Shown in pieces: positions 36,128-64,000 of a stretch of 64,000 bases of DNA. The notes beneath the pieces were generated by a model. That model was not told where the DNA came from, made no database searches, and saw nothing but the letters and a program-made list of their open reading frames with translations. A program made the position numbers and the translations under genes. The stretch is from Ischnura elegans (lineage: Eukaryota; Arthropoda; Insecta; Odonata; Coenagrionidae): assembly GCF_921293095.1 (NCBI RefSeq), contig NC_060246.1, positions 89,215,030-89,279,029 of the forward strand, written 5' to 3'. Every line of letters starts with the position of its first letter. The first letter of the stretch is position 1.

Positions 36128-36645
36128 ATGGATAAGATCTTCCTGGCTGTGGCAGTGTTCATAGCATGGGGGGCATTTGGGCCGAGTTTGGCGGAAAAGG
36201 TGTTTGAGGACCCTGTATCGGAATTAGAGGGAAACAGTGAATTCTATGTAGATAGGGATCCAGATTATTACAGACTCCCGAAAGGGGTCACTCCGCTGAC
36301 TTACGAGCTACGAATGATTCCTTTCCTCGATGAAGACAACCAAACGTTCAAAGGAGACGTCACGATCAAGCTGCTGATCAACTCTGCCACGAGGAACATA
36401 ACGTTGCACTCTAGAGAGTTGAACGTATCTGATATTCGGATTTTTGAATTCAACCCACCGAATGTTGAGATCCCCGTTCAGAACATCCGCCTGAAGCCAG
36501 ACAGGGACTTTTTGGTGGTGGAATCACAAATGACTCTTGTAGAGAACAAAATGTACATTCTTCGTTTAAAATTCGAAGGTGAACTCGGTGACAACAACGT
36601 TGGGTTTTTCAAAAGATCCTACGAAGACAGTATGGGGAGACGGCA
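36128..36645 (+). CDS. APN gene 2, coding exon 1
   Basis: The exon opens at 36103 after a TTTTGCAG acceptor; the ATG is at 36128 and the donor GTAAGT at 36646. It encodes the signal peptide ([20 protein letters not shown]) and [18 protein letters not shown]. An upstream in-frame TTG at 36113 is not needed. Confidence 0.92.
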
Positions 36646-39600
36646 GTAAGTAAATGCAAATTGAAATGTAAGAAAAAAATATCAATGCTCATTTTATCAT
36701 TATAAATTAGTACATAGTACTAGATAATTAAGTCATCTAGTATAAATAATTTGTAGAATCTAGGGAGGATTTTCATTTGACCATCAATTAAAAACATTAT
36801 ACAATTGTGAGTTACCAGCAAAGATGGGGAATGATTGGTATCTGCTTTTCGGTATGTCTCCTTTGGATGGCATCGGAATATAACATATCGGCTGGATACT
36901 TATTACCAACAATAATTAAAAACGAAAGAAGAAGTGGAATTCCATAGTTCTATATTCCAAATTCAATAGCTCTATAATTATATTTATGGACTAAGAGCCT
37001 TGTCTCAATGTTGAATAGCATTAAAATCATTAATTTCTTTAAATATATGGAGTTTTTTTTTCCAATTTTGCGGGAAAAGAGACTAACTTCGAGTCAGAGT
37101 GCCGTATTTTTTAATATTTGCTTTAACGGTGGAGATCTACTGTAGCGCTTCAGTATTGTTTACTGTCACATTGTTTTAAAGGCGAGTCTAATGAATCCTA
37201 ATTACCCGTTATTGTACCAATAAACCTACTCAATTACTTTAATATCACATTTCTTATCGCAGATGGCTGGCTGCAACACATTTTGAGGGATTATATGCCA
37301 GAATGGCATTTCCATGTTTTGATGAACCACACCTCAAAGCCAATTTCTCCATAAGCGTTGCAAGGCCACGCAATATGAATACATTGAGCAACATGAAGCT
37401 GAAACGATTACCAGTTGCTGAGTGAGTAATAAAAATAAATTATGATAGTGAATCTATTTAACGGAAAATAAACTTAAAATGTAAAATATAGGTTAAGTAT
37501 CCACTTATTAGTACTATTCTTAAAATGGCACATGGTGTAACATATATCACATTTAAAATCGAATGTAATAATAAAAATTTTTAACCTATGTGTGGAGTTT
37601 TCTGTAAAATATTTGTCCGGTAAGGCATTGAAGGTAAAGCTCGTTGAAGCCTATGGTTTTATATTAATTTTAAATTCCGCTAATGATAGCATTTTTTCAT
37701 GTCCTATTTCTTACTTATAGAAATTTTATTCTCTGCCATTTTTGTTTCCAAGCATCAATATTCTTACACTGTCCTAGTAGTGAATTCTCGTAGTCATTGA
37801 AAAGAGGTAAGATTTATCCTATTCAGTCTTTTTTTCAATGGCTGGACTTATTAAGGTTATTTTAGGACTGGTTATTTTCAACGTTGACCTAGCGTATTTC
37901 CATTATTTTAGAATAAAAATATCAAGAAACAGTAATGACATAGGGTACGATATTTAAAATAATTATAATTTTCTGTTTTATTTTATCATGTAAGCCCAAC
38001 ACTACCTGATAATTATATGTGGGATCACTTTGAGGAGACGCCGAAAATGTCAACTTATTTGGTGGCTTTTATCGTCTCCAACCTCTCATATATGAAGGCA
38101 GAAGGTCATGAATTCCGGGTTTGGACCAGAAGAGAGTATATTAATGATGTGGAATACAGCGTGAGAATTGGACCAAAAATTTTAGAGGTCATGAAGAATA
38201 TTACTGGGATTGAATATTCTTTACCGAAGATGGATATGGTTACCGTGCCAGATTACAGAAAATCCATGGAGAACTGGGGACTAGTAATCCATGGGTAAGT
38301 GGGCAAGTTTTAGCGGATTTTAAGATTTATACTTGAAAAACTTTCGCATTTATTAAAATTGTACCCCATGTAGGTCATTTAACCTTCTATGTTCGAACAT
38401 ACTTACTAAACCCTGAATATTAAGGCACTAAAACCCGCGCCAGTGGCAGTTATGTGGACCCTATTCACCGCGGTTCATATATGATTGTTTGCCAAACAAG
38501 GTAAAACATTATTTCTGTCATTTATACGTTTCACGCCACTAGAAAAAAGCATTAACACCTTAATAGGAAATAGATAGAGATTCTGATTTTTACCAGTGCA
38601 ATTTCCTGAAAATAATTCATGGAAATCGATTATTTTGTCGTAAGCCAATACATAACGGTTTTTAAAGCATATATTGTTTTTTTTTTAATGAAACCATTTC
38701 GCTTTTTGATTCAGCTCTCACTAACCAATGGAAATCTCTCACTGCTCTCACCAAAAAAAATCCTGTTTCTCATACTTTCAGAGAGTCAAAGTTACTATTT
38801 AATGACGAGGAGTCATCGGAAGCAAGAAAGCAGCGTGTTTCATATATCGTGGCGCATGAGTTGGCTCATCAGTGGTTCGGAAACCTGGTTAGCCCAGAGT
38901 GGTGGACCTGGATTTGGTTGAACGAAGGGTTCGCCACGTACTACGGCAAGCTCGCGATGGAAAGAGTAAGGAAATTATTCATACACAATTGTGTGCATGC
39001 CCATTAAGATGACGTATCACTTCGGCTCATCCGGTCGTATTTTGCATACGAATTCTTGATGTACCCAGCCTTTAATGTCAAAAATATTGCGGTTAATATG
39101 CACGGACCTTTTTTGGAAAATCAAAATGACTCCATTAATTTAAAACACTCATGCAATCGCCACATCCAGTGAAAAGATTTTGAAAACAGGTATCACTTTT
39201 ATTCTGGATAGATGATTTCGGGATGTCGTGTGGTATATAGAAGATGATTTAGGGTTCAGCGTGCTAATGCCAACGTCGAAAGGCAAGCGAGCTCATTTTA
39301 CGACGGAAGAATCGAATCGATCCTGATTCATGACTAAATGATGGGATGTGGAGCCTGACCATGGCAATATTAAGAAAAAAAATCAGTTGCAAGATGACAA
39401 GTTGGACAATTAAATGTTACCCAAAATGGGAACATAATGCAGAATAGTTTCTTTTCTCTATAATATATTTGGAAAACGGCTTGGTTGTGATGTTGAAATC
39501 AGTGAATATTTTGTAAATGCAATGAATGCTAGAGAATGTTGTGAAATTACTTTGAGAGCTTGGGGTGATAACAATATTGGAAACGTAGGAAAAGAGATTT

Positions 39601-42600
39601 TAAAGAGATAACAGTTACAGACATTTTAAACTGGCCAAAATAACTCTACCTGACTTGATAATATTTTTTACTATGAGGCACCAGCTCAAGCCACCCCAGC
39701 CAATCAAGTCTAGCTGAAATTTTGGATGAAAATAATAAACTGGCAGTTGGGATGATATGGTAGTATGCGTTTCTATGCCATCTGGGCACCAATAAGGACG
39801 AAATATTATTGTTACATGTATAGTATACTCGCTTTGCTCGTTGGGGGGGCTCTTCCCCCCCGCCCCCCCCCCCACCCAGACCCACCGGAAAAGGCCTGAG
39901 GCCTGCTATGGTCACTGTGGAAGGTTTTACACTTTTTGTTTGCCACTTGTTACTTAAGGATCGTTTACTTTTAAGTTGGCTAGCTTGGGTATAAGCAATA
40001 TATCCACTTTCACGTAAAACGAGCGCATGGTATGTAGGCTACAATATGAACATAAATATTTATAGAAGAGAAACGTTTTTTTTTGCGGGGTTAAAAAATG
40101 TAAAATAAATTTATACGAGTCTGACAGCGTCTCTAAATTATTCAATTCAAATACAAAAAACGTTGAGACCATGTTCCACTGTAATACCCAATTCATACGT
40201 AATATCATAACAAAGCGGCTTTACATATTACAATGAAAAACACGTTTATTAATTATTTTTCACATAACTCAGCCAAATTCTCGATATATGAAAAAGATGT
40301 GACAGATGTTTCCCTTGGAGCTTTGGAGGGAGATGGTACACACAATAGAATTACGTAGGAACTGAATATCAATATCTAGTGAAAATGCGCCAGATGGAGT
40401 TCCTTAGCATGAATTGGGGCTAGAATGACGAATTTTATCGGAATATTATTTATCACGATCGCGAATGATTTCACTTCATAAATACCTTTATATAAATATT
40501 TAATGGATCGGGATACACAAATATCCCAGCTACAAAATATACAGCTTTTATATCAAAAGCAATTCGCAATAAATCTGGTGAGCAGTAGATGACAGCCTTT
40601 GGTGAACAATACATTGTGAATGTCAATATTTTGATAATGCTTGCAGTTGAATAACTTAGTCAATGAAGGAAACGTGGTTTTGGCAAGACAAATAATTGAA
40701 TAAGAAATACCGTTAATTGCATTTATCCTACATATTTTATTATTCATATTGCCTTTGATGCACCAGCTCTTGGATAATATTGCACATTAAGAAGGACATT
40801 AACGGAAAAAGAACGTAAACAAAAATAAAAAAAAATATCGCCTTTACAAAAAATTGAAAATTAAATCATTTTTACCTACCTATATTTTATGGAAGTCTTG
40901 TTTAGAAGTCTTTCTACTACTATCGTATATCGCCAACAAGGCACGAACTACAGTCAACTGCATGAATCATCTTTTTAAAAGGGCATTATGTGCACTCGTT
41001 AACTATGAAATTAATAATAACCAAACTTTCGATGTAATATACCAAAACAATAAGTAATTTCCTACCTTATAATTCTCCACTTTTCATTTGAATACGCTTT
41101 GATGTAAACAAATGTTGGTTCATGTGGAAAGAAGACGTAAAGAAATAGACATTTCAAGAATTACTTTCTAAATTTCCTACCTTATCTTTATCAGTTTTTC
41201 GTTTTAATTCATTTATCTTCTTTTCCAATTTAGATTCCCTTTCTTGCATAAACGAAATTGTTACTATGATTATTTGTTCCTATGATCGCCGTGCCGCCAT
41301 TGTATTTTGGTGGCCATTTTTTCAACTAATCCCCATACTCAATTTTAATTGAATAGACGGATAATAATTGGAAATTTATCGTTTTCATAATTTTTCCTGG
41401 GGTTTCAGACAATTTTAGAGCAGGTCTTCATAAGACTTATAGATATACAGCGTATGGGATCGTATGAGGCAGTTTTTTGAGATTTCGCTGCCATTGTGGT
41501 AACAGAAGTCGAAGAATAGGGTGTTGCGCTCATTTCGCAGCAATAATTTATTAATTATCCAATATGCGATACCAAGAAAAAATTTCAGTATCGGCGGAGA
41601 TTTTATCTAGAATTTTTTCAAGGGACAATTTAGTAACATGCATCAATGAAGATTCAGAGGACGTCGAATAACCTTTCATAGATCCATTTTCATTGGTATT
41701 AACCTATGATGAAGTCCCAAGGGTTTGGCATAGGTGGGGGATTGTCGAAATGAATTTCTCGATTAGGAATATGTGACAAGGAGGTCATCGAGGGCACAGA
41801 ATAAATTCACGTAGTACGTCTCCCATTAATTTCTATTCTAAGGTTATAAGGACTGGCGGATGGGGGTTGGGAGACAGGTAAACATTTTTTTCGACCTAAA
41901 ATTCCTTACTCGGGGACTTACCGTTTTCAAACACCCGAAAGCCATTTTCGGCACCAGGTGGTGGGAATTACAATCAGTATAAGCGCAGGCGTGCGTCAGA
42001 GGCGTTCGTTTGAAAAAAATTATGAAATCACGTCTTAGAAATTTTCTAATCGACACCATTTCCTCTTGTTACACAAAAAATTCTTGAAAACAATTGGCCA
42101 TCTGCTCCAATAAAAAAACATTACAAAATGCCTCATTCGGCAATTAAAAATATGCATTCTAGTCCGAGATATAAAAAAAGCAGTGAAAATCGAATTTTTG
42201 AGCTAGCTGGCCTTGGTGGGTCTCCAGCGGACTGGAAGTGTGAGGAGGTTAGTCCTATTTGATCCCAATTCTTATGCCATAAGCACGGAAAAAATCGCGA
42301 AGGGGGAACTTTTCACCCTATTATCAAGTTATGCCCTTTGCGGTATTATAAATTAGAGGAAATTCAAAGGTCCGTGATCAGGAGATTTTTTACCATGGCA
42401 ATGAATATGAACTTCAGCGCCTTTCACGCGGCAGGCCTAAAATAAACCAAATTAAAAATGAAATTGTATTAAGAGGACTGCAAAGAGGAGGTCAAAATCC
42501 ATCGCACAGTAATATGATTTCTGTTACCGCTTCGGTCGTATTTTAATCGGTGTTCAAAAAGGTCTGCGGCACGGTGATGAGTGCAATGCGATACCCTTAT

Positions 42601-45600
42601 TTCCATTGTTTTTCGGAACAATGTTTATAATTGCGATGAATGGTATTTAAGATTTATGAATTTGATAGATCGCGTCAAAATGTGCACAAATGAGGTTTAA
42701 TACCCCTAAGTGTATCTTATTTCCCCGTGAAACTCGGATCAAGTTGTCCGTCAGCGACGCATGTGGCGATTTACGTAAACCCATTTATAAGCGTGGTGAG
42801 TTACAACACATTTAGAGGCCGACTTGAGGATCCTCTTTTGTGATATTGGTGCTCTTAACCAATTGGTACGTCAGGAAATCAAAGCAAATTACGAACGGTC
42901 AGGTGGAAGCGTTGCAACCTCCTGTTAACCAGCTGTTTGGCACGCTCTATTGCAGATTGAACCCTCATGGAGAATGATGGAACAATTTGTTGTTGAAGAC
43001 ATGCAGCCCGTATTGGCATACGACTCATCTTTCAATCTCTTTCAACCAATGAACCACATGATCAAACATCAATATGATGTGGATTATGCTTTTGATGACA
43101 TTTCTTACGAAAAAGGTAAGCGGACCAAAGTACAGAGCCTATCACATATTGATTTCTTTTGATTCATTTGTAAATTGAAAACGAAAATAGTTCATGGTAT
43201 ATAGTATTCGACAAAATGACTCTTCCGTGAGGCATAGTTTTTCAAGCTAAAACAATGAATGTATCAAGTAATTTTCTATGAATGAATTTTTTTAATAACA
43301 TACTGCATTAATATTCTTATTCTAACAGGAGCAATGAATAAATTTGTTAAAGTTAATGTCAGGGGCGGATCCAGGATTTTTTTCTGGGAGGGGCACAAGC
43401 AAGGCCGTATCCAGGATTTTGTTCAGGGGGGGGGCACAAGGATACCTCGTTATACAAAACGAACGAAATGATGATGGGACCGTATTAAAAATCTCCTCCA
43501 TGCTATCAATGCTAATTATATGCCCCCCCCCCCCCTGGATCCGCCTATGGTTAATGTGTTCTCCTGCATGCATTGTAAAATCATTTTAATTTTCGGCATC
43601 AGTCCCATTTTAAAGTTTTAAATGCATTTTAGGCAGTCCATTTTAATCTCTCTTGATACTTTAAGTTTCTGCCATTTTTTCTGTATTTTATGGTGTGAAT
43701 ATTTTAACTATTGAATCATGCTAATCATTTATTAAAAGAAGATAATTTTTGCTCGTGCTCATATAAATGTCTTTACAGCTTTGTTTCTAAAGTAAAAACC
43801 TTTACTTACAGCTGCGTCTGTAATCAGGATGATGTCAGACTTTCTGTCCGAATCAACTTTTTCTCGAGGCCTAGAAACATATCTAAATCAAAGGTGAGCC
43901 TATCAAAGAATAACTTTATTCAATTTGTTGATATCTTCTTCAAAACTCTCAATCGTACTTATTTCAAAACTTTCGATCTAACTTTGTTGTCGAATGGATT
44001 TTGAAGATAGCTGTTAATTGTTTTTCCCGATTGAATATTGATCTGTTGGAAAGTTATTTTCAACAAATCAACATTCAACATTTTCTTTCACACATGTACC
44101 ATAAATAATAAATGAAAAGTCCGTCATTTAGCTCACAACTCCGTGAGAAATCATTAACATCAGATATAATTAGAGTTTACGTGTTCATACTTCTAAATTT
44201 GCGCGTTGATGAATATTACTAATTATGACTGCTTTATCCCCAAACCCACTATTTAATATATAAACTGAATAATTCACCATGTCTTCAATATTGTAATTGT
44301 TTGTTTTTAATGAAGGTAAACTATCTATAGTAAAGTTTCTTCAAGATCGCTGAGAGAAACCATTAACATCAGCCATCTTTAGAGCTTTCGTTTTCACACT
44401 TTTAATTGCGCGTATTATTTAATATAATTTTATAAATGTGTGAAAGAGTGACTTACGTCCACATATATATTGATTATGTGTATCCTTATCACATTATCTG
44501 TTTACGTATAATGGGGTACATGCACGAAATTTGTTCATCATGCATGTAAAACTTATTGAATGGAAAATTTTCTCACGAGTACAAATATATAAGCCAAAAC
44601 TCTCCTGGCACTACACAAACGTCATTAAATGCTTATTAAAAGTGATAGAATATCGCTTGATGTCACGTAACCTGAAACACCCTCTGACGTCATCGCACGG
44701 TACACCATTCACTTCGCTTAGAGAGTAGAAGGGCAGACTCTTGTTTGCAATATATCGAAGTAAAAATCATCAACGAGCTATGTAGTAGTTTCTAAAGTTG
44801 ACTTAATAGGGATTTAAGAAAGCACAATACGACAGTTTACTTTTGGTCGACTTCCATATGGCGGCTGATTATCTGAAAAATAGCGTTTTCTTCCATATCT
44901 TACCAAACAATTCCCTTCATTTGTTTCAATATCTCCTTGGCAATCCAACACATTCTGCTGTTTGACGCTAAAGCAGCAATTATTTTCGCCATATTTGCGT
45001 TTGAGCCCCTTCATAGACCGATTTTTTATCCACTTTCTCAGTCTGTCATCAGTGGATTCCGTGCCGTGACGTCACGCTCCGATGACGTCGTGTTTTTCAA
45101 GCAGCCGATGAAGATTAATTTTCAAAGACTCATAACTCAGCTAAAAAACATTATTCATCCGCGAAATTTTCGGTGAGTACATTTGAGATAGGGACCTTTT
45201 TAATCTAGTACTTTGAAAAAATTGTGCATGTTCCCCATTGAGGCAGGGAAACACAAAATAACTGTTTCACGTGTGTATTCCACCCGCGAAAGTTTCAATG
45301 CTCGTATTATAAATACTTAATCCTCTTATCCACTTCTTAATGGATAAATCTGAATGTTTCAATATGACTTTAAAACTGTTATCAACTGTATTAATATTGT
45401 AAAATATAAAAGCCAGGTTTTTCTGGGTGATCCATGATGTGTATCTTTTATCGCCTCCAGGAAATATAATTCAGCCACAGATACGCACCTTTTTGAGGCA
45501 ATGGACACTCAGGCACTGATTGATCAAGTTCTACCAGCAAATTTCTCGGTCAAGACAATCATGAGTTCATGGACAACTCAAATTGGGCACCCGGTCGTTA

Positions 45601-48600
45601 CCGTGAAGAGAGATTATCTCACCGGTAGAGTAACGTTGAAACAGGTAATGGCAATGTATGCCTTTGCAAGTATTATCCATCATCATGAAATAGTCCACCT
45701 TTGTTTGGAAATTTTCGAACACCTTAACCGTCACTGTTTTGTACTTTACTATGCCTCTTCTTTTATCACCCACATCTTGCGGTCATTCCGTGAGCTGCTC
45801 CAACGATAACTGGATTAAAATGTCATTCCTACGAAATAAAATACCCTATTCAATTTTATTTCGTCTTCTTAGTCACGTTCTAATATTCTATTCTATTCTA
45901 TATACAAATTTCTATAAAATTCCCAAGAAAACTCTACGTTCGGCACTAAATGCGTTTGCGTGCGCCGTGCACTAAAATGGGTTAATTATAGTCGTCACTC
46001 GTAACGCTGGCGATTATAATTGCACGGGGAAATAAACTTATATGAAGTCAATAACGATTTGATATTCTCCCGGTGGAATGAAGTGATTAGTTAATCCTTC
46101 TCGGATTTCTGATTGCACCAGGCTCTCCAATTGTGCAAACATGTCGATGGAATATTATTCTATCCTCCTGAGTCCCCCATAAGTTCTTTGGCCATAAAGT
46201 GAGGCAATGAATATAAAAACTCCAAAAAATGCAAAATAAGCTTCATATTATTTAAGTGTAATATTTTTTGTTGATTTTTTATTGAATTAATATTAAATTA
46301 TAAAATGATATTGCTAATGCATGGAACGTTACGAATCTTACTCAATAAATTCACTGCCAAATGCTACCCTTATGAAAGTGTTTTCATCATTGAGAAAAGG
46401 TTGTTAAGCATAGAATAAGTACCCGAATATTATAAATATGATGCCTTATACGTGACACCTGAAGATGGTATAATTTCTTCCATTCAAGATGGACGGGTTC
46501 CACCCTTCTCACCGGTTAACTCTGTTTGCAGAACGATAATTTTGTTAAATTGTTCTCATTTTCATGTTGTTTTTGAAAGAAGACCTTGAATAATTTCTTG
46601 CCGGCTTGAAATTTATAGAAATTGCTTAGTCTTAGTACATGCAACCAATTGTTTCAGGGTTAATAAACCCTTTCCTTGTTAAATTAATTAATTTTTTGTA
46701 TCGTGGTTTTCATGATTTAGGAGAAATTTTCTTACTTTCGGTGGACCAGAGGCGCTAAAAAAGAATTATGGTGGGTTCCGATCAAATATACGTCGCAGAA
46801 TGCTGGGAAATTCAATGAAACCAAGGTTATGCACTGGATGAAAGACCGCTCCGATTCTATTTTGCTGGGAAGCCCTCCTGCTGCTGATGAATGGATTCTT
46901 TTCAACGTTAATCAGATAGGTCAGTAATTCATTTCATTTCACTAGTACATAATTAGTAGTTCATTCAAACATTCAATAGTTTATTTAGCTTTTTTAACAC
47001 ATTTTATTGCCGTTACCTCAAATGTTTAATGACCTACAGAAATATTTTTCGTAAACACTGTAAACTTTCTTGATCCTACGCAGAGGTTTGATCGAGTAAA
47101 CAGCGTAAAAATTTGCCTATACTAATCATTTTCATTTTCTGAAAGAGTAATTTAAAGAATGACTTTTTTGTGATGCATAGGTATATTAACGTCCTTAATT
47201 CAAATTATCTTACTTCATTAGACCTTTCACTAGCTCTTAAGTAGATTTCGTGATTCTCAGCCATGGAAGGAATTTGATGTTGTCTAAAAATATATAAATT
47301 GTTTAATCTTTGATTCACTCACCTCTAATAATGCTAGATGCCTTCTAGTGTCATATCAGTCATTTGTTTGCATCATTTATTTCGAAGCTGTTGGTGTGGT
47401 CACATGTAAACTCGTAACGCATACGTCTTCCTCAACAGGGTCATGCAAGCCATTCTTTTACATTTGCTTTGCGATTTATTGTCGACATATGCCTGATTGA
47501 TGGAAATATTTTCTTTTAGGATTCTACCGGGTCAACTACGACGATCGCAACTGGAGTCTCCTGAGCAATTACTTGAATTCTAATGAATACCGCAATATTC
47601 CGCCCGTTGAGCGTGCAATGCTGATCGACGATGCTCTCAATTTGGCCATGGGTGGTTACATAAACTATAGTGTAGCCCTAAATTTAACGTCTTATTTGCA
47701 TCGAGAATCAGACTTCATTCCCTTATATGCCGCTTACAGAGGATTCAGTATCTTGGAATGGGTGCTATTGCAATACCATTCCAATGAGCTGAGTAACTTC
47801 AAGGTAAATCTACTTTATCCTAAAGAATTACTCATGAACACACAAAATTTCTTTTGCCGGAAGAGAGGGTGCAGAGATGACGGCAATATCGGTGAAGGAA
47901 GAGTCAAACCAGTCAGTGGCGGATCCAGGATTGTTTTCTTGGAGGGGCACATGCAAGGCCGTATCCAAGATTTTGTTCTGGGTGGGGCACAAGGATACCT
48001 CGTAATAACAAATGAACACAGTGATAATGGGACCGTATTAAAAAACTTGCATATTTTTGAGGGTCTGGGGGGGCACGTGCCCCCGTGCCCCCCCCCCCCC
48101 CTGGATCCGCCTATGAAACCAGTCATGCAGAACTTGAACTCAACCGCACTGCAACTGCTACGATTCCTTGAATAAATTACCAATATATTAAGTATTGTAT
48201 AAAGAATAATGTTCTTCAAAAAATTGGGAAGAATATATTTTAAGAGACAAAAAAAAGGGCATAACTATTTTCGGTAACTTTTATCTTTCAATCATGAAAC
48301 TCGTCATCAGTTTATCGTTTAACTACAGTTTTAAGGTTTAAAAAGAAAACGCATCCCATTAAAATTATATCTACTAATATTTTGTCGGGTTTTAAGTAAA
48401 TACCAGGAAATCATTTATCTTGATCAAGTTCCTTAAATAGTTTCAATACTTTTTTTATTTTCTATATTTATATTTCTTTATCATTTCAATAATTTCTTCA
48501 TAAAAACATAAAAGTGAGTTATGAAATCACTAATGAATACTCATTGGATTTAAAAATTGTATTATACGCCTTAAAATTTTCACCTAATTTAGGAACACAT

Positions 48601-51600
48601 GAGGAAATTACTGACAAGTTATTTCGGTACGCGAACATTCGAAGTGACGCCTGTGGATGACCATGTGATGAAACTTAGTCGAAATTTGCTGTTACCCTGG
48701 GCATGCAAATATAATTACGACCACTGCAAATCCAAGGCCATCAAATTATTCAGAGAGTGGAGAGAAAACAGCACAAAGAGGTATAAATGGAATTTTTCAT
48801 AATTTTTCATCCATGATTCTAACTCATATCTCCCGATATCCACTTGTATCGAATGCAGGAAAGAATCCTTACTATAATATTTATAAGACGTTTTAAAACG
48901 TACTAATTTAGTGATAAAGTTTTAGGAGGAGTTATTGTTGGGGCATTTGGAGGATTTAATCAAACTTCAATTCGAAAGATTACAGCTTATTCATCAATTA
49001 GTCATATTGGATGAATAATCATAGCAATACTTATAAGATTAAATTATTGATAAATATACTTTATATTTTATAGATTACCCAGAATTACTGTTGTATTATT
49101 AATGAATAATAACTCGTTATTTTATTTATCACAAATATTTTCTCTTAAAATAAACAAAAGATTAAAATTCACATCCTCTCTTCAAAATTGACCCTAATTT
49201 GAAAAGGCTTACAAATAAATTATTTTTTTACCTGTTCAATTGTTTCGTGGAATTCTACAATGACGACTACATTCATTCCTTCTGTAATCTGTCTACTCAG
49301 CATTCCTTCCGACCTAAAGAGGGTGGTTTATTGCTTCGGAATCAAAGAGGGAGGCAATGAAGACTGGGATTATGTTTGGAATGCTTACCGAAAATCTTCG
49401 GTCGCAACTGAAAAAGATGCCTTACTACTATCATTGGGGTGCAGTAGGAATGACACCAAAATCCTCGGGTAAGTAATTTTCTCTAATGAGTTTTAGATAT
49501 TATGCTGTAAGAAAAAGTAAGCATCGGATAATAACTAGTCAGATATCTTCGGTCCGCCAAACAAATCCCTGTGCTAAATACACCAAAGAATGAAGTTCGC
49601 CATGTAAAAATATTTGGCTTATCCGGGATTCTAACTCACATCTCCCGATTTCCAGTTGTGTGTGGCAGCCAGTCACACCACCAAACCATTTTCTCAGATC
49701 GAACTTCGGGATGAATTTTACCGAATAAGATATTGACGTCACTAGTCACCGCTGTTAAATTTATATTCGTGATGATTTGTTCGACCAAACTCATTGTGTT
49801 TTGTATGGTATTCCTCACGATTTTAAATATCATATGGTAAATATTGGAAATAAATAAATTTTTCTTTTCTTATTGTCGCGCTGAGAACATTTTTTGGCAA
49901 GCGATTGAAATGAAACAAATGTTTCCACAAATAGCCTGGGTCAAGGTGACTGACTGATATCTTTAATGTATTCCCAGAACGTTAACACAGTGATCTCCAA
50001 ACTATGGCCCCTGAGTCACATCCGGCCCGCTGCAGAAATTCCTGATAATTGGCCCATGTAATATGGAACCTGATTTTAGTGAAATTTTGAAGTCAAAACG
50101 GAAGGACCATTCGCCAACCTTAATTTGGTAGCGTAAAACCACAGGCAGGAATCTATTTAGTTCACCCTGATTTTTTCCAACAAGATATTTTTTAAATTTT
50201 CCATGTATATAAGTACTTTCCTTTTTTCCTTGGGCTACAACCTTATCACGGTGGACAGACTTGCGCGTTCCTATGACCCCTAGAGCTGCGCTGGCGGGAT
50301 AAATTCGCAATTATCCCCGGTAGGGCCACCTACGCCAGGTAGGTCGAAGGGTAGGAGCCAGACAAAAGGTAGTTTACGAGATGGCGTCGCGTAAAAAACA
50401 CAGTTTGAGGGCGGGTGAACTAGAAATTATGAAAAGGGAAATGCAGAAAGGGAGGATTGATATCTTGGGTCTATCCGAAGTTAGGTGGAAGGACAGTGGG
50501 GACTACTGGAGTGACGGGTACAGGGTTATACATAGTGGTGGGGTGGAAAGTCAACGAGGGGTAGCTTTAGTACTAAACAGGAAGATGGCTAACCGTGTGG
50601 TTGGTATAGATAAAGTAAGCGATTGGATTTTTGTGGTAGGTCTTGTGGTATATATTGAAGTTTACATGCCCACACGCATTTATAGGGAAGAAGAAGTAGA
50701 TGAGGTGTATGAACAGCTCGATGATATAATTAGAGAAACTCCGGGAAAGAAAAATGTGGTTGTGATGGGGACTGGAACGCCTCAGTCGGGGAATGGCATG
50801 AACACCTAGATACTCATGACCTGAGTATGTAGGCGGTCATGGGAACGAAGGGATTAAACAAAGTATGAGAATTTGGATTAGGAATTCGGAACGACAGGGG
50901 TGAGAAAGCAGTAGAATTTTGCAGGAGAAACAAGTTATTCATTACAAATACGTGGTTAAATCTTCACAAAGTGCGAAGATACACATGAAAATGTACAAGG
51001 GACATGGGGAGATATCAGATAGACTACATCGTGGTAAGGCAGAGGTTTAGGAATAGTGTGAAAAACTCGCGCAGCTTCCCTACAGTGGATGCGGATTCAG
51101 ACCACAACATAGTAGGTACTTATGAAATGCAACGTCAGCCTCAAAAGACTCATAAAAGTAAGGAAGGTGATTAAATGGAATGTAGAAGCTCTGAAAGGGA
51201 TTCTGGAGAGAATATAAGAAACTTGTTGAAAGTAGCACCCAGGAGATTGAAAGTACAAATAATTTTGAGGGAATATGGAATTATATTAAAACTGAAAAAG
51301 TCAAAGCGGCTGAGAAGTCAGTTGGTTACGTTGAAGCAGAAGGATAAAGAAGTCCTGGGTTACGGAGGCGATAGTAAAAGAAATAAAGTAAAGAAGAGAG
51401 CAAAGAAGGAAGTGGAAGAACGTGGACACAGAAAATAGACAAATTAATAATCGATTACGGCGTGAAACTAAGAGAGCATGGGAGGCTTGGTGGAAAAGAC
51501 AGTGTGAAGAAATGGAAAATTTCCAGAAGGTAGGAGAGGTAGGCGCGTTATATGCCAAAGTTAAGTCGCTATCGGGCGGCTAAAGGGGGAAAGTCATAAT

Positions 51601-54600
51601 TAAAATTAAGGCTAAAGAGGGAAGGATGCTAACCGAACGAGAAGGGGTACAGAGTAGATGGAAGAAATACGTGGAGGTTGTGTATGAAGAACAGGCCGGA
51701 GAGATTGACTTTAGAGGAGGAATGTGAAAGGGAGGAGGATAATCTTGGGCCGGGGATCTTGGATGCGGAAAGCGAAAGAGCTCTCCGTGATATGAAGGCT
51801 AGGAAAACCTTGGGTGTGGGAATATCCCGTGTGAGCTGCTGAAGAATATAGGGAGGGATAGTAAGAAAAGGTTTTTCGCGCTACTTCACAGGATCTATGA
51901 GGAGGGCTGCTGGTAGGAAGATTTCGTGAAGACGGTTCCGCTGCCGAAAAAGAAGAATGCTGTTGAATGCGGAGAATATAGCACTATTAGCATATTATCG
52001 CACGCGGCGAAAGTTGTACTGAAGATATTGAACAGACGAATGGAGGAGAGGGCAAACGAGTATTTGGGTGAGGATCAGCTTGGTTTTAGAGAAGGGAAGT
52101 CAGCTCGTGACGCAATAACAATAATGAGGTCCCTCGTGGAGAGGAACCTAAAATATCACCCAGACGTGTATGCCTGTTTCGTGGATTTTGAAAAGGCATT
52201 TGATAGGGTAAATTGGGTAAAGATAATGGATATACCAAGTAGAATAGGTGTAGATTGGAGGGATAGGCGACTGATTCGTAATTTATATATGGCCCAGACT
52301 GCGCAAGTGAGGGTAGGGGACGAAGAATATGGGTAGGCAAGCATTGGCCGGGGAATGTGGCAATGTTGTACTTAATCGCCCCTGCTTTTTAACGTATACG
52401 CTGAGGAGATGGTAAGAGAATCGTGGGATGAGTTAGAAGCTAGAGTAAAATTGGGAGGGGTAATGTTCAAATCAGTGAGATTCGAGGATGATCAGGCGCT
52501 GAGGAGAAGATGGAGTGAAAGTGGGAGGAATGATATTAAAGTCATTAAGGTTCGCGGATGATCAAGCGCTCATTAGCCAGTCAGCGAGGGGGCTTCAGGA
52601 TCTAGTGGATGCGTCATCCGTGCGTTGCGATGAATGTGGGATGAGGATTAACCATAAGAAGACCAAGGTTATGCGGTTTCGTAAATCATCACGAGCGAGA
52701 AATGTGAGACTTAAGATAAAGGTGGGTGGTGAAAAACTTGAGTAGGTTGAGCAGTTTAACTATTATTAAGGCAGTACGTTAGAGGAAAACAGATGTAGTA
52801 GCAAGGACATCAAGGAGAGAATTGATTTGCAAATGAGGTGTTCATGAACAGGAAGGAGTTTATGAGAGATTAGCTATGTAAGAATTTAAAGAAAAGGTTA
52901 GTGAAGAGTCTGATCTGGAGGGTAGCGCTTTACGGTACGGAAACGTGGACACTGAGGAAGGAGGACGAGAGAAGATTGGAGGTATTCGAGATGTGGGCGT
53001 GGCGAAGAATGGAGAAGGTGAAGTTGTCAGAGAGGAGGAGGAACGACGAAGTGCTGGGTATGGTGGGTGAGGAGAGGCAGCTTTTAGATTTATTGTCGTC
53101 TTTATTTCACAAGTGAATTTAGGATTGGATAGTCCTCTCTTACAATTAACTTGTTTGACAATCACATACATCCATGCCCTGGATGGTGGCCAAACCACCC
53201 AGGCGGGATTCGAACCCGCGACCCCTAGGTTAGCAGTCGGAGACTTTACCCCGGCGCCACCGAGGCCGGCATGGGATACGGAGATGGGATACGGAGGAAA
53301 AGAAGATATGGATTGAGCGAGTACTTAGCGGGGAGGGGATGTTGAAAACAGAGTTAGAGGAAAGAATGTAAGGTAAACGAGGGAGAGGAAGGAAAAGAAT
53401 AGGATTTTTAGATAGAATGAAAGGTAGTTGGTCTTTTTGCGAATTGAAGAGGGAAGCGCATGATGAAAGGGGAGGCTCACGGAATTCTTCTTAAGCATTC
53501 CATGGAAACCTACCTTAATCGGTAGAATACTTTAATAATAATAATACTCTAATTTTTTAAGGAAATTTAATTACTGGCAATGTTTCTTTTACTTCTTCGG
53601 CCCGCATAAATGTTCGTAACGTATAATGTGGCCCCAATATTGAAAATTTTGGAGACCCCTCATCTAGAACATTACCCGCTAGCACTCGAACCCTGTGGAA
53701 GGGGTTCAAGTGCTTGCCCAAGGATTATCAGACAGCTTAATCACAGTAGGGGTGCACCTCTTCGGCCGAAAGCTTTGCAGTAGACGCAGGCATCCTGGTT
53801 CAATGTGACGTAAAGGCGAATGATGTCCCCATAAGGTAATTAATCCATACAAAAATACCTGCCATTGTACCTACCTTACTCTAATAAAATAATCCATTCC
53901 TTCGCAACCGATTAGGTTTTTCTAAGATCTAAGATTTTTAAGATCTTCCCCGCAAATGCGAAAATCTTTAGGAAAAAGTGTTCATCATTTATTGTTTAAT
54001 TACATATTGGTTTGTTGGGGAGTATTTGAAATTTGATTATTTGGTCCCTGTTCAATTTTTAGTGGTATGATATTAGAATTGGTGCATTATTTTTACAAAT
54101 ATAGGTGTCATTTCTGTTTTTTACTTTGCTATTTGATAGGTAGATTTGTTATTTATGTTTGTAAATCTAATGCTACCTTCAGGCAATAGCCCACTTGCAG
54201 CAATATGTAATAATAAAAAAAGACAAGTGATAGATATCAATCACATTGCATCATTGGGATGAATCGAGATTGAAATGAATCGAGCAATCGGTTGGAGAAA
54301 TGAATTGTAACTAAGAAGTAAAAAATAGTTATGCCTACCACTTCCAATAAAAATGTAATCAATTTTGAATTCTCCGACAAATGCAACTAATTATGTGAAA
54401 CCTTCATTCTCCGCCATTGGATGTCCTAGCCATTAAAAATTTTCAACATAGGTACAATCTTTTTTGAAATTTCAGTATTAATAGAATTTTCGTGGGAGTT
54501 ATTCTTCCCTTTTTGTTGAAGTATTTTTTTTTCTTTATCAGACAATGGCTACAACAGGGTTTGGACAAATAGTCTAATTAAATTAAGCTTGTTATTTGCA

Positions 54601-56557
54601 TCCCTTGCCTTACTTTGTATTATGAAGTTTACTTTGCTTTGGATGACACAAGCCTTCACAGGTGGTTTCACCGTTTATCGATTGCGCATTGAAAAAATTA
54701 ACTTAAAATTATAAGAGGCAGGATGCGTAATGATTTCCTTTGGCTATCCATTCAATATGCTCAAATTTACTCTGCACGTGTGAAATATATAAGCAAGCCT
54801 TAGAATTATTTTGTTTAATTATTTATTTTGATGCATTATTGTTGTTATTATTTGCGAATTATTAAGCTTAATTTCTTGTTTCTGACCATACCATTTGATT
54901 TTATTCCAGTATGGATCCTGCAGAACTACAAAAATTAATTAAAATTGCTACGAAGCAAAAGGCATCCGAAATTCTGTCAGAGAAGGTAAATACCCATAAA
55001 CAGTTGCTTATTACATTTCCTTAAGAGGTGTCTGGACGCATTCATGCACTTCTTGTTATGATTAAGATCAAGTTATCTGTGTAATATTCCAAATATGAGA
55101 GGCGGTGAAATATACAAGAATTGCCACGAGAAAAAATTCTCCTGGACCGGGAATCGAACCACGGACCTTTGGCTTTCCGTTGACACCTAGTACCATCAGC
55201 CTCGGTATAATTGCCATGGGAATTAAAGAACCTGGATAGCGTAGTGGTATGCGCAGTGGCCCGGAAAGCCAAAGGTCCTTTAAAAATGCTTTAAAAAATC
55301 TGTGCTGAGGTAGAAATGGACGTATGAGCAGGTCCCATACGAAGGGTTGGCCTCTGTGCCGAGGATCGGACGTTCGTTACCGAGCCCCGCCGGTCATTTT
55401 TACCTATGCTTTTTTTTTGGAAAATTTGATAAAAGAATAATAATCTGTTGTTTATGTTCTTTGCTTATGTTTACCTCCAAAATTTTATTTGAATGAAAAT
55501 GTCTAAGACACGCATAGAAAAGCATATATAAATGATTGAGATCAAAATTTTTAATGTTTATAATGTTGTACTTTTATATACTTGTATGTGATACTAATAC
55601 GTTTGAAATTGTTCCCACTAGATGTATTATATATCTGTTTTGTATCAAAAATTAAGCAATAAAAGCTTATTTAATCGAAAGCCAAAGGTCCGTGGTTCGA
55701 TTCCCGGTCCAGGGGAATTTTTTCTCATGGCAATTCCTGTATATCAAGTTATCTATTGTTTAACGGTGAAGTGCGGAGATTTTTCTTTCCGACTGCTATT
55801 ATCGGCGGTTCTCCGTTCCATTGGTTGATTTGATAGTGTCGTTGGATTCACGCTTCATATTTACTCCTTGACAATGAAAGGGATAAATTGTAATTTGTAG
55901 ATTTTTACAATAATTATTGTGAAAGGTGGAAAGCTTGTTAAAAAGGAACGTCTTCGATTAATTCCTTCGACTCTTGTGTAATAATTTTATCAAATATTTT
56001 GAAATATGAAATAGAGAGTCAAACTGCTGTGCATAATGTATTTTTTTAACCAGCATAGGCTTTGAACTTATATTTCAATTCTTGTGCGTTGCATGTTTTC
56101 GGTAAATAATAGATCTGTGCATGGCGGTATCATCCTAAAATTTAGTCAGAACTTATCGACTTCACCTAAACATTTTCATGAGCTGCGGAACGATTTACTA
56201 GCGGGCACACGTATCAGTGGCCATGAGGATTTTAAAAATAGTTAACTTATAAGGATGAATAAATATGTCAAATTCGAAAGCTATCCGACATAGCTGGCTT
56301 TGAAAACTTTTTTTATTGCATTCAGTTAGCATTGAATGACCCTGTACGTAAATGAACTAACCTCTTCATTTTTGTCGCAGATGAATCTGAGCGACATCGA
56401 AGAGGGTCCATTTGGTGAAGATGTTGATTATATTTGGGGATTTATTCCCTTAACCCAGGAATGGATGGATAAATTTGGACCCAATATCGAGTCGTGGCTG
56501 AGATGGGCGCATCTTCAAGATCCTTTCAACTTACGTGCAACGCAATTAGAATTTTAA
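36128..56557 (+). CDS. Aminopeptidase N gene 2 (M1 family), 13 coding exons, no GPI tail
   Basis: Tandem duplicate of gene 1 with the same 13 exons and phases; the joined length is 2679 nt, about 892 residues. Signal peptide at 1-22. [12 protein letters not shown] (351-355), E374 and the catalytic Y438 are kept. Differences: the GAMEN motif reads KSMEN (315-319), changing the residues around the substrate amino-terminus pocket. A net 7-base loss in the last exon shifts the frame after ESWLR and ends the protein at LRATQLEF, so the hydrophobic GPI signal is lost and the product should be secreted. The ERAP1-like domain is short in the same place as gene 1. All splice sites keep GT/AG, so it is probably expressed; whether it is still an active aminopeptidase is open. 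Confidence 0.9.
37263..37421 (+). CDS. APN gene 2, coding exon 2
   Basis: The acceptor is TTATCGCAG at 37262 and the donor GTGAGT at 37422. It encodes [20 protein letters not shown] followed by EP. Confidence 0.92.
37995..38294 (+). CDS. APN gene 2, coding exon 3 (KSMEN)
   Basis: The acceptor is TGTAAG at 37994 and the donor GTAAGT at 38295. It encodes [20 protein letters not shown] and ends [14 protein letters not shown]; the family motif here is GAMEN. Confidence 0.92.
38782..38965 (+). CDS. APN gene 2, coding exon 4 (zinc site)
   Basis: The acceptor is CTTTCAG at 38781 and the donor GTAAGG at 38966. It encodes [17 protein letters not shown] and [11 protein letters not shown], so all three zinc ligands are kept. 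Confidence 0.94.
39822..41447. other. Copy-2-specific 1.6-kb insert in intron 4
   Basis: Flanking sequence aligns with gene 1 intron 4 (AAGGACGAA.TA.TAT...; ACAGCGTATG), but the middle does not. The insert starts TATACTCGCTTTGCTCG and then long G/C runs, with AT-rich sequence after. No coding motif and no clear terminal inverted repeats were found. It is probably a transposon of unknown class. Confidence 0.5.
42490..42860. repeat. Dispersed repeat family R, copy in gene 2 intron 4
   Basis: Counterpart of 13600-13960, with the same GATGAGTGCAATGCGATACC and TTTGATAGATCGCGTCAAAA blocks. Being in both units, it predates the duplication. Confidence 0.6.
42956..43115 (+). CDS. APN gene 2, coding exon 5 (catalytic tyrosine)
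   Basis: The acceptor is CTATTGCAG at 42955 and the donor GTAAGC at 43116. It encodes [18 protein letters not shown] and ends FDDISYEK. It is two codons longer than in gene 1. Confidence 0.9.
43360..43549. mobile_element. hAT-like MITE (CAGGGGCGGATCCAGG family), 190 bp
   Basis: Ends CAGGGGCGGATCCAGG and CCTGGATCCGCCTATG are inverted repeats. An exact 8-bp duplication, GTTAATGT, flanks it (43352-43359 and 43550-43557). The corresponding gene 1 intron (about 14440-14490) lacks it. It lies between exons 5 and 6. Confidence 0.92.
43812..43893 (+). CDS. APN gene 2, coding exon 6
   Basis: An 82-base exon between a CTTACAG acceptor and a GTGAGC donor at 43894. It encodes [20 protein letters not shown] and then ETYLNQ. 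Confidence 0.9.
45461..45644 (+). CDS. APN gene 2, coding exon 7
   Basis: The acceptor is GCCTCCAG at 45460 and the donor GTAATG at 45645. It encodes [18 protein letters not shown] through [20 protein letters not shown]. Confidence 0.93.
46721..46919 (+). CDS. APN gene 2, coding exon 8
   Basis: The acceptor is GATTTAG at 46720 and the donor GTCAGT at 46920. It encodes [20 protein letters not shown] and [10 protein letters not shown]. Residues 6-14 differ strongly from gene 1 in an otherwise near-identical exon. Confidence 0.92.
47520..47803 (+). CDS. APN gene 2, coding exon 9
   Basis: The acceptor is CTTTTAG at 47519 and the donor GTAAAT at 47804. It encodes [11 protein letters not shown] and [19 protein letters not shown]. 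It is two codons longer than in gene 1 ([14 protein letters not shown]). Confidence 0.93.
47914..48115. mobile_element. hAT-like MITE (same family), 202 bp
   Basis: Ends CAGTGGCGGATCCAGG and CCTGGATCCGCCTATG with exact 8-bp duplication AAACCAGT (47906-47913 and 48116-48123). Gene 1 has a single AAACCAGT at the equivalent place (about 19155), which is the empty site. It lies in gene 2 intron 9. Confidence 0.95.
48593..48780 (+). CDS. APN gene 2, coding exon 10
   Basis: The acceptor is AATTTAG at 48592; the donor GTATAA at 48781 is weaker than the GTAAGA of gene 1. It encodes [20 protein letters not shown] and EWRENSTKR. Confidence 0.9.
48922..49170 (+). pseudogene. nad2: NUMT: nuclear copy of mitochondrial nad2 fragment
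   Basis: Under the invertebrate mitochondrial code the segment reads [18 protein letters not shown], then [10 protein letters not shown], then further hydrophobic sequence with TGA as Trp and ATA as Met. This is the conserved GG.NQTS.RK..AYSSI.H.GW core of insect NADH dehydrogenase subunit 2. One TAA near 49033 breaks the frame. It is flanked by nuclear intron 10 of gene 2. The gene 1 intron lacks it, aligning directly across (GTGATAAGGTTTTG ... CTCTTAAAAATTGG). Insertion therefore followed the tandem duplication. Confidence 0.88.
49301..49468 (+). CDS. APN gene 2, coding exon 11
   Basis: The acceptor is CTACTCAG at 49300 and the donor GTAAGT at 49469. It encodes [28 protein letters not shown] and [16 protein letters not shown]. 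The following ERAP1-domain block is not found. Confidence 0.9.
49530..49700 (-). mobile_element. tRNA-derived SINE, decayed (unit 2)
   Basis: Counterpart of the SINE at 20286-20460: reverse-strand GGTTTGGTGGTGTGACTGG as A-box region and GAGTTAGAATCCCGG as a degenerate B box. A related half-copy lies at about 48810-48850. Confidence 0.5.
50226..53545 (+). mobile_element. APE-type LINE, nearly full length but inactivated (unit 2)
   Basis: Leader GGGCTACAACCTTATCACGG at 50231. EEP endonuclease at 50381-50809: [40 protein letters not shown]. Reverse transcriptase at 51926-52336 ([41 protein letters not shown]) and 52515-52745 ([10 protein letters not shown] in place of the usual YADD). The C-terminal part is at 52901-53400 ([19 protein letters not shown]; later a KRGRGRKR stretch). 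Multiple frameshifts and stops separate these, so it cannot encode a complete protein. Residue patterns recall RTE-type LINEs, but the clade is not proven. A SINE interrupts it at 53089-53275. (TAA)n tail near 53535. Confidence 0.88.
53089..53275 (-). mobile_element. tRNA-Ser-like SINE inserted in the LINE
   Basis: The reverse complement begins GGCCTCGGTGGCGCCGGGGT, has an anticodon-arm-like CCGACTGCTAACCTAGG (GCT anticodon position) and an exact B box GGTTCGAATCC. A unique body follows, and it ends in an AAATAAAG/AATAAAT tail. The LINE copy in unit 1 reads straight through this point (GCTTTTAGATAAGATGCGG), giving an empty site. The acceptor-stem pairing of a working tRNA is lacking, so it is a SINE and not a tRNA gene. 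Confidence 0.8.
54910..54985 (+). CDS. APN gene 2, coding exon 12 (stalk)
   Basis: The acceptor is TTATTCCAG at 54909 and the donor GTAAAT at 54986. The length and phase equal gene 1 exon 12. It encodes [20 protein letters not shown]; the threonine run is absent and the segment is lysine-rich instead. Confidence 0.68.
55105..55737. mobile_element. Inverted / split tRNA-derived SINE ends
   Basis: A B-box unit on the minus strand (55140-55178, complement of GGTTCGATTCCCGGTCCAGG) and one on the plus strand (55680-55717) face each other. Between them at 55230-55278 is the matching A-box half (TAGCGTAGTGGTATGCGCAG ... AAAGCCAAAGGTCC), cut off from its B box; AAAGCCAAAGGTCC is repeated at 55679. 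The gene 1 intron 12 lacks the whole segment. Confidence 0.65.
56381..56557 (+). CDS. APN gene 2, terminal exon 13 (frameshifted, no GPI signal)
   Basis: The acceptor is TTTGTCGCAG at 56380. It encodes [17 protein letters not shown] and [10 protein letters not shown], then diverges in frame ([17 protein letters not shown]) to TAA at 56555-56557. Between CTGAG and GATCC there are 16 bases here against 23 in gene 1. The DNA for the hydrophobic tail is still present beyond the stop but out of frame. Confidence 0.8.
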   Translation: MNLSDIEEGPFGEDVDYIWGFIPLTQEWMDKFGPNIESWLRWAHLQDPFNLRATQLEF

Positions 56558-58056
56558 TAGCTCTAATCCATTTTCTCATTCGTTAAACTTTGTAAGTTAT
56601 TGTGAATTTACTAACAGTGCTTCTTCAACTTATTTTGAGTGACATATACAGTGGGTGAGTGAAAAAACATTTTTCAGAAAGAAGTGATTGTGAAAATAGG
56701 AAAATGTATTTTTTAAAATTACATTCATATTTCATGCTACTTTAAGGTAGCCTCAAGTGCGAATAATGATAATGAACGAATCAAATCTGCTTTCATCAAT
56801 GATTACATGTAAATTTATAGAAAATTATAATTTGTCTTGGATTGTTTACTGCTCACAAAATGTTAGTAATTGTACATGTATATGATTTATTTTATATCAA
56901 TATCTCGACCATGTATATAATACTTCCTAGCTGCAAGCCTTCCTTTCACCGCGAATATCAGTCTTAAGCCTGAATTACGTGATTTATTTTTCCGTCCCTC
57001 AAAGTGATTGCTGCAGCGATAGTTTTACGCTGACCAAAAAATGATCGCTCGACTCATCATTTGCTGAATGAACGTTCATTCTTCCGCCCCTTTTACCATC
57101 GCTTTTTTCAAAACTTGCAGTATATACATCATTCAATCCAATAAAATCCAAACGTGACGTCACAATTTCTTTTAGTGGCCGTGCGTTATGATTGGCTGAA
57201 AGGCTATGACAGCGATGGTTTCAGCGATGGAAAAAAATAAACCTTCCGAGTGCTGGAAAAAGGGATCGAGCTTAACATCCCTGGAGCCTTCACGATCATA
57301 TGAAAGGATCATTTTTCCGCCATCTATGTAATGATCACTATCGATCTTTAGAGACACACATAAAGAGCGGGTCATACTAGCTTTATTATTCAATGTACTA
57401 ATTGAAATTATTTTACGAAGCAAATAAGCTGTATTGTGAATCAATTCTCTCCTGCATAAATTATGCAAACTTTTGGCATATATTTTAACAAAACTTAGCG
57501 TTTGGAATAATATCACATTCGGGCTGCTGTTCAGGGGTGGTCTAGCCGGGTCGGCTGGCCGACGATGGCCGAGGGCCCCGAGCTCAGGGCGCCCACACAA
57601 CGCTCGCGTCTATCGTGAAGCTTATTCGAAAGGTGTGGTAAAAGAATACTCATATTACTTGAACCAAAGTTTTTGTGCAACTATAAAATTCTAGGTTTTC
57701 ATTAATTTTCTTTATTTATAAAATACTCAGTGTAAACAAAGCCATATAAAAATATTAAACTTTTCTCTTTTGAAAGGGTTATTCGCAAAGCTTATTTTAG
57801 ACTTTTTTTGTTTTTATATTATTGAATTTTATAAGCTGTGAAATTCTCACTTTTGCAACATTTTTTCCGGAAAAATTGGCATTTTTATTAACTTTTATCT
57901 AGTTTTTAAGATCCAGAAATGCGTCGATTACCATTTCTGGGCATCCGATAGCCTAAAATTTTCCATAGTATCCCCAGCCGAGGGCCCCCATCAACCTATA
58001 CAACCCATACTACTGTTCACGACTTTCTCCGCTTGCTATGAATTTCGTCATACTTA

Positions 58057-62048: not shown

Positions 62049-62267
62049 TCAATAAAACTGATGGATGAGGATGCTCAGCAAAGCAATCACTATAACACTA
62101 GCTTGGTGGGTAGTTGACGCACTGACATGATACTTTTCTTTCAGCCAGTCTTCAACCGTTTGCCCATAAGTTGTCACCCATTTTAGATTGCTTTCGATAT
62201 TCTTTTTAGACTTGCTGATGGTAGATTGATCTATTTGTTGCAGGTTATTTCCAAAAAAGATAGACAT
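62049..62267 (-). CDS. Aminopeptidase N gene 3, terminal exon (partial gene)
   Basis: On the minus strand a TTTTTCTTTGCAG acceptor (62268-62270) precedes 72 codons to TGA at 62049-62051. The product contains KSKKNIESNLKWVTTYGQTV and EDWLKEKY, the NI.W....Q.V.DWL helix that closes the ERAP1-like domain of APNs. A short Ser/Thr linker (SASTTHQ) and the hydrophobic tail ASVIVIALLSILIHQFY follow, fitting a GPI signal. It is clearly diverged from genes 1 and 2. Earlier exons must lie to the right of the window. The gene is tail-to-tail with gene 2. Confidence 0.85.
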   Translation of the reverse strand: MSIFFGNNLQQIDQSTISKSKKNIESNLKWVTTYGQTVEDWLKEKYHVSASTTHQASVIVIALLSILIHQFY

Positions 62268-62984: not shown

Positions 62985-64000
62985 CTTTTTCCGCCTTCTC
63001 ATCATGTGGTTTCTCCCGATGTGGCCTTCCTAGCCCGAGAGGTTCACGGTCCGGGTTCCGGTGAGAGCCTGAGCCCTTCGGAGTAAAACTCCCGCGCTAC
63101 CCTCACGCTGGAATGGTCATACTCCTCATTGTGTTACTCTCAGGGGATGTCAGTCTTAACCCTGGCCCTTCTCGTATCCCTCAAGTACACCTTTATTATC
63201 AAAATGTGAGAAGCATCAAGACCAAACTTGACGACTGTGACACAGACGCCCATGAGCTCTCCCAATTTGATATATGTAATTGCCCTTTCTGAAACCTGGC
63301 TAAAGCCCTCAGTCGCTGATGCTGAATTATCCTTTGTGAACTCCCACAATATCTATCGCCGAGATTGACCGTCAAGAGGAGGAGGAGTGCTCCTTGCTGT
63401 CGACAATCTCTATCCATCAAAATGCCGCCTGGACCTGGAAACGGACTGTGAGATTATATGGATTGAGGTGTCACTAGTCTCAGGTGAACACTCTAAGGCA
63501 TGTAAAATCTATGTTGGTTGCTTTTACCATCCCCCTAACAGTGACATTACTATTCTGGAACATTGTCTAGATTCTGTGTTCAGAGCTATAAACCTAGGTC
63601 CTGTAATTCTGGTTGGTGATTTTAATCTTTCAATTCGATGGAACAATCCAACAAGCGGCTGTCCAACCAATGCTCATGACGACTTCTTTCTACAACATTT
63701 TGTAAATGCTCGTGGCCTTCCTCAATACTGCCTACACGGAACTCGAAATGCAGCAACGCTGGACTTACTTCTTGCGACCATTGCTCCTGCGGCAGTCACC
63801 CCCGGGCAAAATATTTTCGACTCCGATCACGAGTCCCTCGATGCAGTTTTCCTCGTCCAACGTTCCAAGAAGCACCCCACCCCGCCCCCTAAGCCTTTCC
63901 CTGCTTGGTTGAAGGCATGTTGGGACGACATAAATCGCTGCCTCGACCTCATACCCTGGGGTATCCTTACTTCTATGTCTCCGGAAGAAGGTGTGGACTT
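62985..64000 (+). mobile_element. CR1/L2-like LINE, 5' part with 2A-like motif and EEP domain
   Basis: From ATG 63113 the frame reads MVILLIVLLSGDVSLNPGP, then VHLYYQNVRSIKTKLDD, the start of an EEP endonuclease. A one-base frameshift near 63270 moves to VIALSETWLKPSVADAELS; a TGA at 63366-63368 interrupts RRD..PSRGGGVLLAV. Later motifs are ILVGDFNL, AATLDLLLAT and IFDSDHESL. The element runs off the window before the reverse transcriptase. The SGDVSLNPGP block resembles 2A-like peptides reported at the N-terminus of some CR1/L2-group LINEs, with the usual Glu replaced by Ser. Confidence 0.85.

Follow-up and report, generated by a model that had tools for sequence, protein, structure and literature searches.

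Tandem aminopeptidase N genes in Ischnura elegans and an apparent out-of-frame GPI signal in the second copy

Insect aminopeptidases N (APNs) are digestive enzymes and binding proteins for insecticidal toxins. The portion of the literature considered here states GAMENWG, HEXXHX18E, a signal peptide and a GPI signal as features of these proteins (PMC11554492). According to the same portion, no GPI site is predicted for AgAPN5, AgAPN10 and AgAPN11 of Anticarsia gemmatalis; the entire GAMENWG is missing from AgAPN5, AgAPN6 and AgAPN10 (PMC11554492). For gene duplicates more generally, the abstract of a second source gives a frame change near the C-terminus after duplication in 55 of 88 cases (PMC8872073).

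Two tandem APN genes

We analyzed a 64-kb stretch of the Ischnura elegans genome (contig NC_060246.1, forward strand; below, the window, whose first letter is position 1). It carries two tandem plus-strand genes that resemble each other over exons, introns and flanks, with mostly 80–90% identity between matching pieces. Each was spliced by hand into 11 coding exons with GT-AG sites and compatible phases. Exons 1–11 are without internal stops in both genes, and their length differences are multiples of three. The parts of the two gene models are as follows.

2255–20225, plus strand: gene 1 exons 1–11 (coding part), M1 aminopeptidase with GAMENWG and HELAH-x18-E, GT-AG model without stops, Pfam M1_N, M1 and ERAP1_C to position 215
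24142–24217, plus strand: probable additional exon 12 of gene 1, 76 nt, entered in phase 2 and left in phase 0, acceptor, donor and length as in gene 2
24973–25185, plus strand: last exon of gene 1, with a GPI-type tail at its end
36128–49468, plus strand: gene 2 exons 1–11 (coding part), M1 aminopeptidase with KSMENWG replacing GAMENWG
54910–54985, plus strand: gene 2 probable extra exon 12, 76 nt
56381–56557, plus strand: gene 2 last exon as read, without GPI signal

The predicted proteins have 899 and 892 residues, respectively. Both give Pfam matches to Peptidase_M1_N, Peptidase_M1 and ERAP1_C far above the curated cut-offs, e.g., 206.9 and 206.7 bits for Peptidase_M1 compared with a cut-off of 27.7. 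Among proteins of solved structure, Anopheles gambiae AGAP004809 (PDB 4wz9, also called APN1) is the best relative found for the gene 1 protein (E 6.5e-142, with a query containing one extra Gly at a junction). The N-termini of both predicted proteins are hydrophobic and look like signal peptides, as judged by eye only. The 3′ part is the least certain portion of the gene models, because the terminal exons are more diverged and no exons for ERAP1_C positions 217–318 were found.

In alignment with the mosquito APN, the HExxH-x18-E zinc site is present in both genes (HELAH...EGFA). The GAMEN exopeptidase motif occurs in gene 1 (GAMENWG) and is replaced in gene 2 by KSMENWG (38260–38280), i.e., the exopeptidase motif is changed in the copy that is also without an anchor signal. 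Since KSMEN replaces GAMEN and the remainder of ERAP1_C is unrecognised, the gene 2 product is not necessarily an active enzyme.

Over exons 1–11, dN is 0.087 and dS 0.142 (dN/dS about 0.61, Fisher p 0.001); as dN is below dS, selection has held one or both proteins. In 60-codon pieces the ratio ranges from 0.24 to 1.20, and the overall value is not assignable to gene 2 alone. At 121 differing sites aligned to the mosquito APN, gene 1 matched at 23 and gene 2 at 25, and gene 2 hence appears not to be the faster copy. This comparable rate argues against a plain pseudogene, while being no proof that gene 2 is used.

In intron 10 of gene 2, the plus-strand stretch 48928–49116 gives a Pfam match to NADH:quinone oxidoreductase (38 bits) and, under the invertebrate mitochondrial code, an ND2-like protein (ND2 judged by eye); it is probably a nuclear copy of mitochondrial DNA. 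The gene 1 counterpart of this intron is about half as long, with no ND2-like stretch seen by eye. Between exon 11 and the last exon, reverse-transcriptase sequence (RVT_1) lies at about 50300–52700. Related DNA is found at the matching place of gene 1 (20988–22340 versus 50613–51991), so part of the element may predate the duplication; an RVT_1 match was not found there.

The frame change in the last exon of gene 2

The initial annotation of this DNA had counted 23 bases between CTGAG and GATCC in the last exon of gene 1 and 16 in that of gene 2, and we confirm both numbers. In gene 1, CTGAG (25090–25094) is followed by 23 nt and then by GATCC (25118–25122). In gene 2, CTGAG lies at 56498–56502 and GATCC at 56519–56523, with 16 nt in between (56503–56518). 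Two features follow from this comparison.

56503–56518, plus strand: frame-changing 16-nt stretch (23 nt in gene 1)
56518–56586, plus strand: GPI-tail remnant in the abandoned frame

The frame change is directly observed. Both genes share a reading frame through ...ESWL, after which gene 2 continues with 18 new residues to the TAA at 56555–56557. Gene 1 continues with a small-residue site, a spacer and a hydrophobic end, as in GPI signals. The stop before the hydrophobic tail and the persistence of the tail DNA, both claimed earlier, are thus borne out, the latter at 56518–56586 in another frame. Only 6 mismatches in 72 nt separate this DNA from gene 1, hence the resemblance exceeds chance. 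The further claim that a net loss of 7 bases shifts the frame holds for the shift and not for a bare 7-base deletion: the 16-base and 23-base stretches are mismatched at numerous positions, and the same exon contains a divergent block at 56418–56457. "Net loss of 7" understates this more complex replacement.

Several ways of joining the last exon to the rest of the gene were compared. We rejected a model in which exon 11 is joined straight to 56381, as the phases clash (2 to 0); it would lead to an immediate stop in gene 2 and, in gene 1, to a stop after 28 out-of-frame codons. The frame of the last exon is the same whether splicing uses an acceptor at 56392, 11 nt inside the exon, or includes the probable 76-nt exon, so the result does not depend on the choice between these two.

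We ran a GPI-signal prediction on both proteins with a simple, self-made rule, i.e., small residues at ω and ω+2, a spacer of 5–12 residues and an uncharged hydrophobic end. Gene 1 and a probable third gene (see below) pass, and gene 2 fails in both frames. Across the window, 7 of 439 stop-to-stop ORFs of at least 50 aa pass. For the gene model, the proposed loss of the GPI-anchor signal in gene 2 is hence supported. The unused gene 2 frame fails only through arginines, and a looser version of the rule without the charge bar yields candidates. All four codons changed before the stop of the abandoned tail alter the residue (G to R, T to R, V to A and C to R). Over the 72 nt we counted one synonymous and five non-synonymous differences, one of the latter past the stop, although these numbers are tiny. 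The changes are few, and of the kind expected under disuse.

A one-base sequencing or assembly error within 56503–56518 would suffice to create a false frameshift. We regard this as very improbable, given that the stretch has no runs longer than three and is far more than one base apart from gene 1, and that the tail behind it has changed in the direction expected of disuse. Alternative splicing might also restore the anchor if exon 12, which ends in phase 0, were joined to an acceptor inside the last exon (CTGAG/ATGGGCGC, 56503). This site exists (CTGAG/ATG), its phase fits and the tail frame would be restored. However, its pyrimidine content is 0.44 compared with 0.88 at the main acceptor, the rest of the last exon would go missing, and the restored tail carries the gained arginines and fails the GPI rule. 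Such a transcript thus appears highly improbable.

The direction of the change can be considered with the help of a third exon near the end of the window.

62049–62267, minus strand: probable terminal exon of a convergent third APN gene, with a GPI-type tail, acceptor TTTTTTCTTTGCAG, containing ...NLKWVTTYGQTVEDWLKE..., passing the GPI rule

Here, a minus-strand ORF downstream of a good acceptor reads MSIFFGNNLQQIDQSTISKSKKNIESNLKWVTTYGQTVEDWLKEKYHVSASTTHQASVIVIALLSILIHQFY*. From its features and their order, we consider it probable that this is the last exon of a third APN gene, the rest of which would lie mostly beyond the window. A tblastn match to a composite consensus was not significant (E 0.42, chance level), with two other stretches scoring equally, and Pfam gave no match for this exon or for the last exons of genes 1 and 2. 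Because gene 1 and the probable gene 3 both have GPI-type tails, loss of the anchor in gene 2 seems the likelier direction than gain in gene 1. On the side where the remainder of the third gene would be, an open plus-strand frame (63369–63998) leaves the window; its matches are of the endonuclease/reverse-transcriptase type and under the curated cut-offs.

We therefore consider the following explanation with moderate confidence. Gene 2 would be a tandem copy of a GPI-anchored, insect-type APN gene whose last exon was rewritten across short stretches after the duplication. The net length change would have put the GPI signal out of frame and left a new 18-residue tail after ...ESWL. With a hydrophobic N-terminus resembling a signal peptide and without an anchor, the gene 2 product would be secreted. 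From the sequence, we infer that the last exon is probably spliced as modelled and that the product would be made, would be soluble and secreted, and would have a biological role. The soluble, secreted enzyme proposed in the initial annotation is thus partly supported.

Divergence and incompleteness of the 3′ part

In the last exon, block 56418–56457 has 20 mismatches in 40 ungapped nt. The 719-column alignment has 127 differing columns, counting gaps; shuffling these reached 20 per 40 in 3 of 5000 trials. We also profiled 15 aligned intron or flank segments. The mismatch fraction was 0.09–0.185 in 13 of them and higher in two, i.e., 0.20, and 0.33 in the poorly aligned intron 10. Blocks over the threshold were found in these two segments and in the probable 76-nt exon. 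The last exon of gene 2 and the probable exon at 54910 thus exceed most introns in divergence. Over 40 aligned codons of the last exon, dN is 0.37 and dS 0.086, compared with dN of 0.25 and 0.33 and dS of 0.37 and 0.34 in the other two frames of the same stretch.

A second divergent block (54926–54962) lies within the 76-nt stretch, which is bounded by an acceptor and a donor common to both genes (TTTTATTCCAG / GTAAAT). The stretch is open in both genes and has the phase required to link exon 11 with the last exon; it is a probable exon. It is one of 6 among 123 candidates that came through a loose filter, 4 of these 6 ending in the needed phase, and may thus be a chance find. Over 25 ungapped codons its dN is 0.77 and its dS 0.62. 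With dS nearly equal to dN, the divergence resembles the replacement of a block more than plain diversifying selection. A further reading is weakened by this result. In that reading the copies diverge by selection at exons coding for a C-terminal stalk, and gene 2 would encode a secreted, catalytically altered homologue that is no brush-border enzyme and instead serves in the gut lumen as a soluble decoy or binder; we hold it to be improbable. A short BLAST within the window for a template of the divergent blocks gave no second copy and just 9–13-nt matches.

The stretch 55110–55744, in the last intron of gene 2, has no counterpart in gene 1. Inverted repeats of 68 nt (95.6% alike) lie on either side of it, and both carry a B-box-like GGTTCGATTCC motif; a motif resembling an A box occurs at 55237. 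These are perhaps paired tRNA-derived SINEs. ARAGORN found no tRNA gene in 54900–55900.

Neither gene has a complete ERAP1_C C-terminal domain. In exons 1–11, the match to the 318-position profile stops at 215 in gene 1 and at 216 in gene 2, and the mosquito APN could be aligned with the gene 1 protein no further than its chain residue 796 of 957. Exons for positions 217–318 were not found between exon 11 and the last exon of either gene. A Pfam read-through of the three plus-strand frames gave no ERAP1_C past position 216. Canonical exons after exon 11 contain IRKQD... and YFG... regions; the motif search for such exons returned short [FL].LG matches and one YFG directly before a stop. Composite consensus searches by tblastn gave nothing convincing for them, and the best local alignments scored 41 and 38 in gene 2, both within or close to the retroelement, and 28 in gene 1, compared with 35 in a control region. 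The read-through scan is incomplete, as it found 5 matched stretches upstream where 7 exons are modelled, so absent exons could be diverged and not lost. The ERAP1_C exons were thus either lost in a common ancestor, perhaps with mobile-element insertions, or are too changed to recognise.

These observations bear on a rival explanation in which the 3′ part of both genes has decayed or been rebuilt, with domain IV exons missing, perhaps through mobile-element insertions. The last exon of gene 2 would then be unconstrained, and the loss of the anchor a by-product with little functional meaning. The truncated ERAP1_C and mosquito alignments in both copies, the failure of the Pfam read-through, motif and composite searches to give a convincing remainder, the reverse-transcriptase sequence in the gene 2 intron that follows exon 11, and the excess of dN over dS in the last exon are all in its favor. 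However, exons 1–11 are open, with selection holding at least one copy, and the probable 76-nt exon and the last exon are open and in phase in both genes despite their high divergence. Moreover, gene 1 has kept its GPI-type tail, and the incomplete scan leaves room for missing exons that diverged instead of being lost. We consider decay rather unlikely and retain the rewritten last exon with its out-of-frame GPI signal as the preferred explanation.

Comparison with known systems

If true, the locus would be a readable case of a small post-duplication frame change that relocates a protein and leaves the old anchor signal in the DNA beside an anchored sister gene. As APNs act in digestion and bind insecticidal toxins, an unanchored copy could be expected to act differently. 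Both halves of this idea are already published, i.e., APNs without a predicted GPI signal and C-terminal frameshifts in duplicates. A narrow literature search found neither this gene pair nor an APN whose GPI signal was lost through a frameshift.

Compared with the insect APN AGAP004809, the genes described here are alike in M1_N, M1, ERAP1_C, HExxH-x18-E, a putative signal peptide and the GPI-type tail of gene 1. In contrast, their ERAP1_C ends at 215–216 in both copies, and gene 2 has KSMEN and no GPI signal. The lepidopteran AgAPN5, AgAPN10 and AgAPN11 resemble gene 2 in having no predicted GPI signal, AgAPN5 and AgAPN10 also being without the full GAMENWG (PMC11554492); the portion of that paper considered here gives no cause, whereas in gene 2 the former tail can still be read in the DNA, next to a tandem copy with an anchor signal. 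With the duplicates that carry C-terminal frameshifts, gene 2 shares a frame change near the C-terminus after duplication; the text of the paper on these does not contain GPI, anchor, secreted, soluble, peptidase or transmembrane (PMC8872073). The change in gene 2 is of an ordinary kind in a well-known family, made attractive by its legible remnant and its anchored sister gene.
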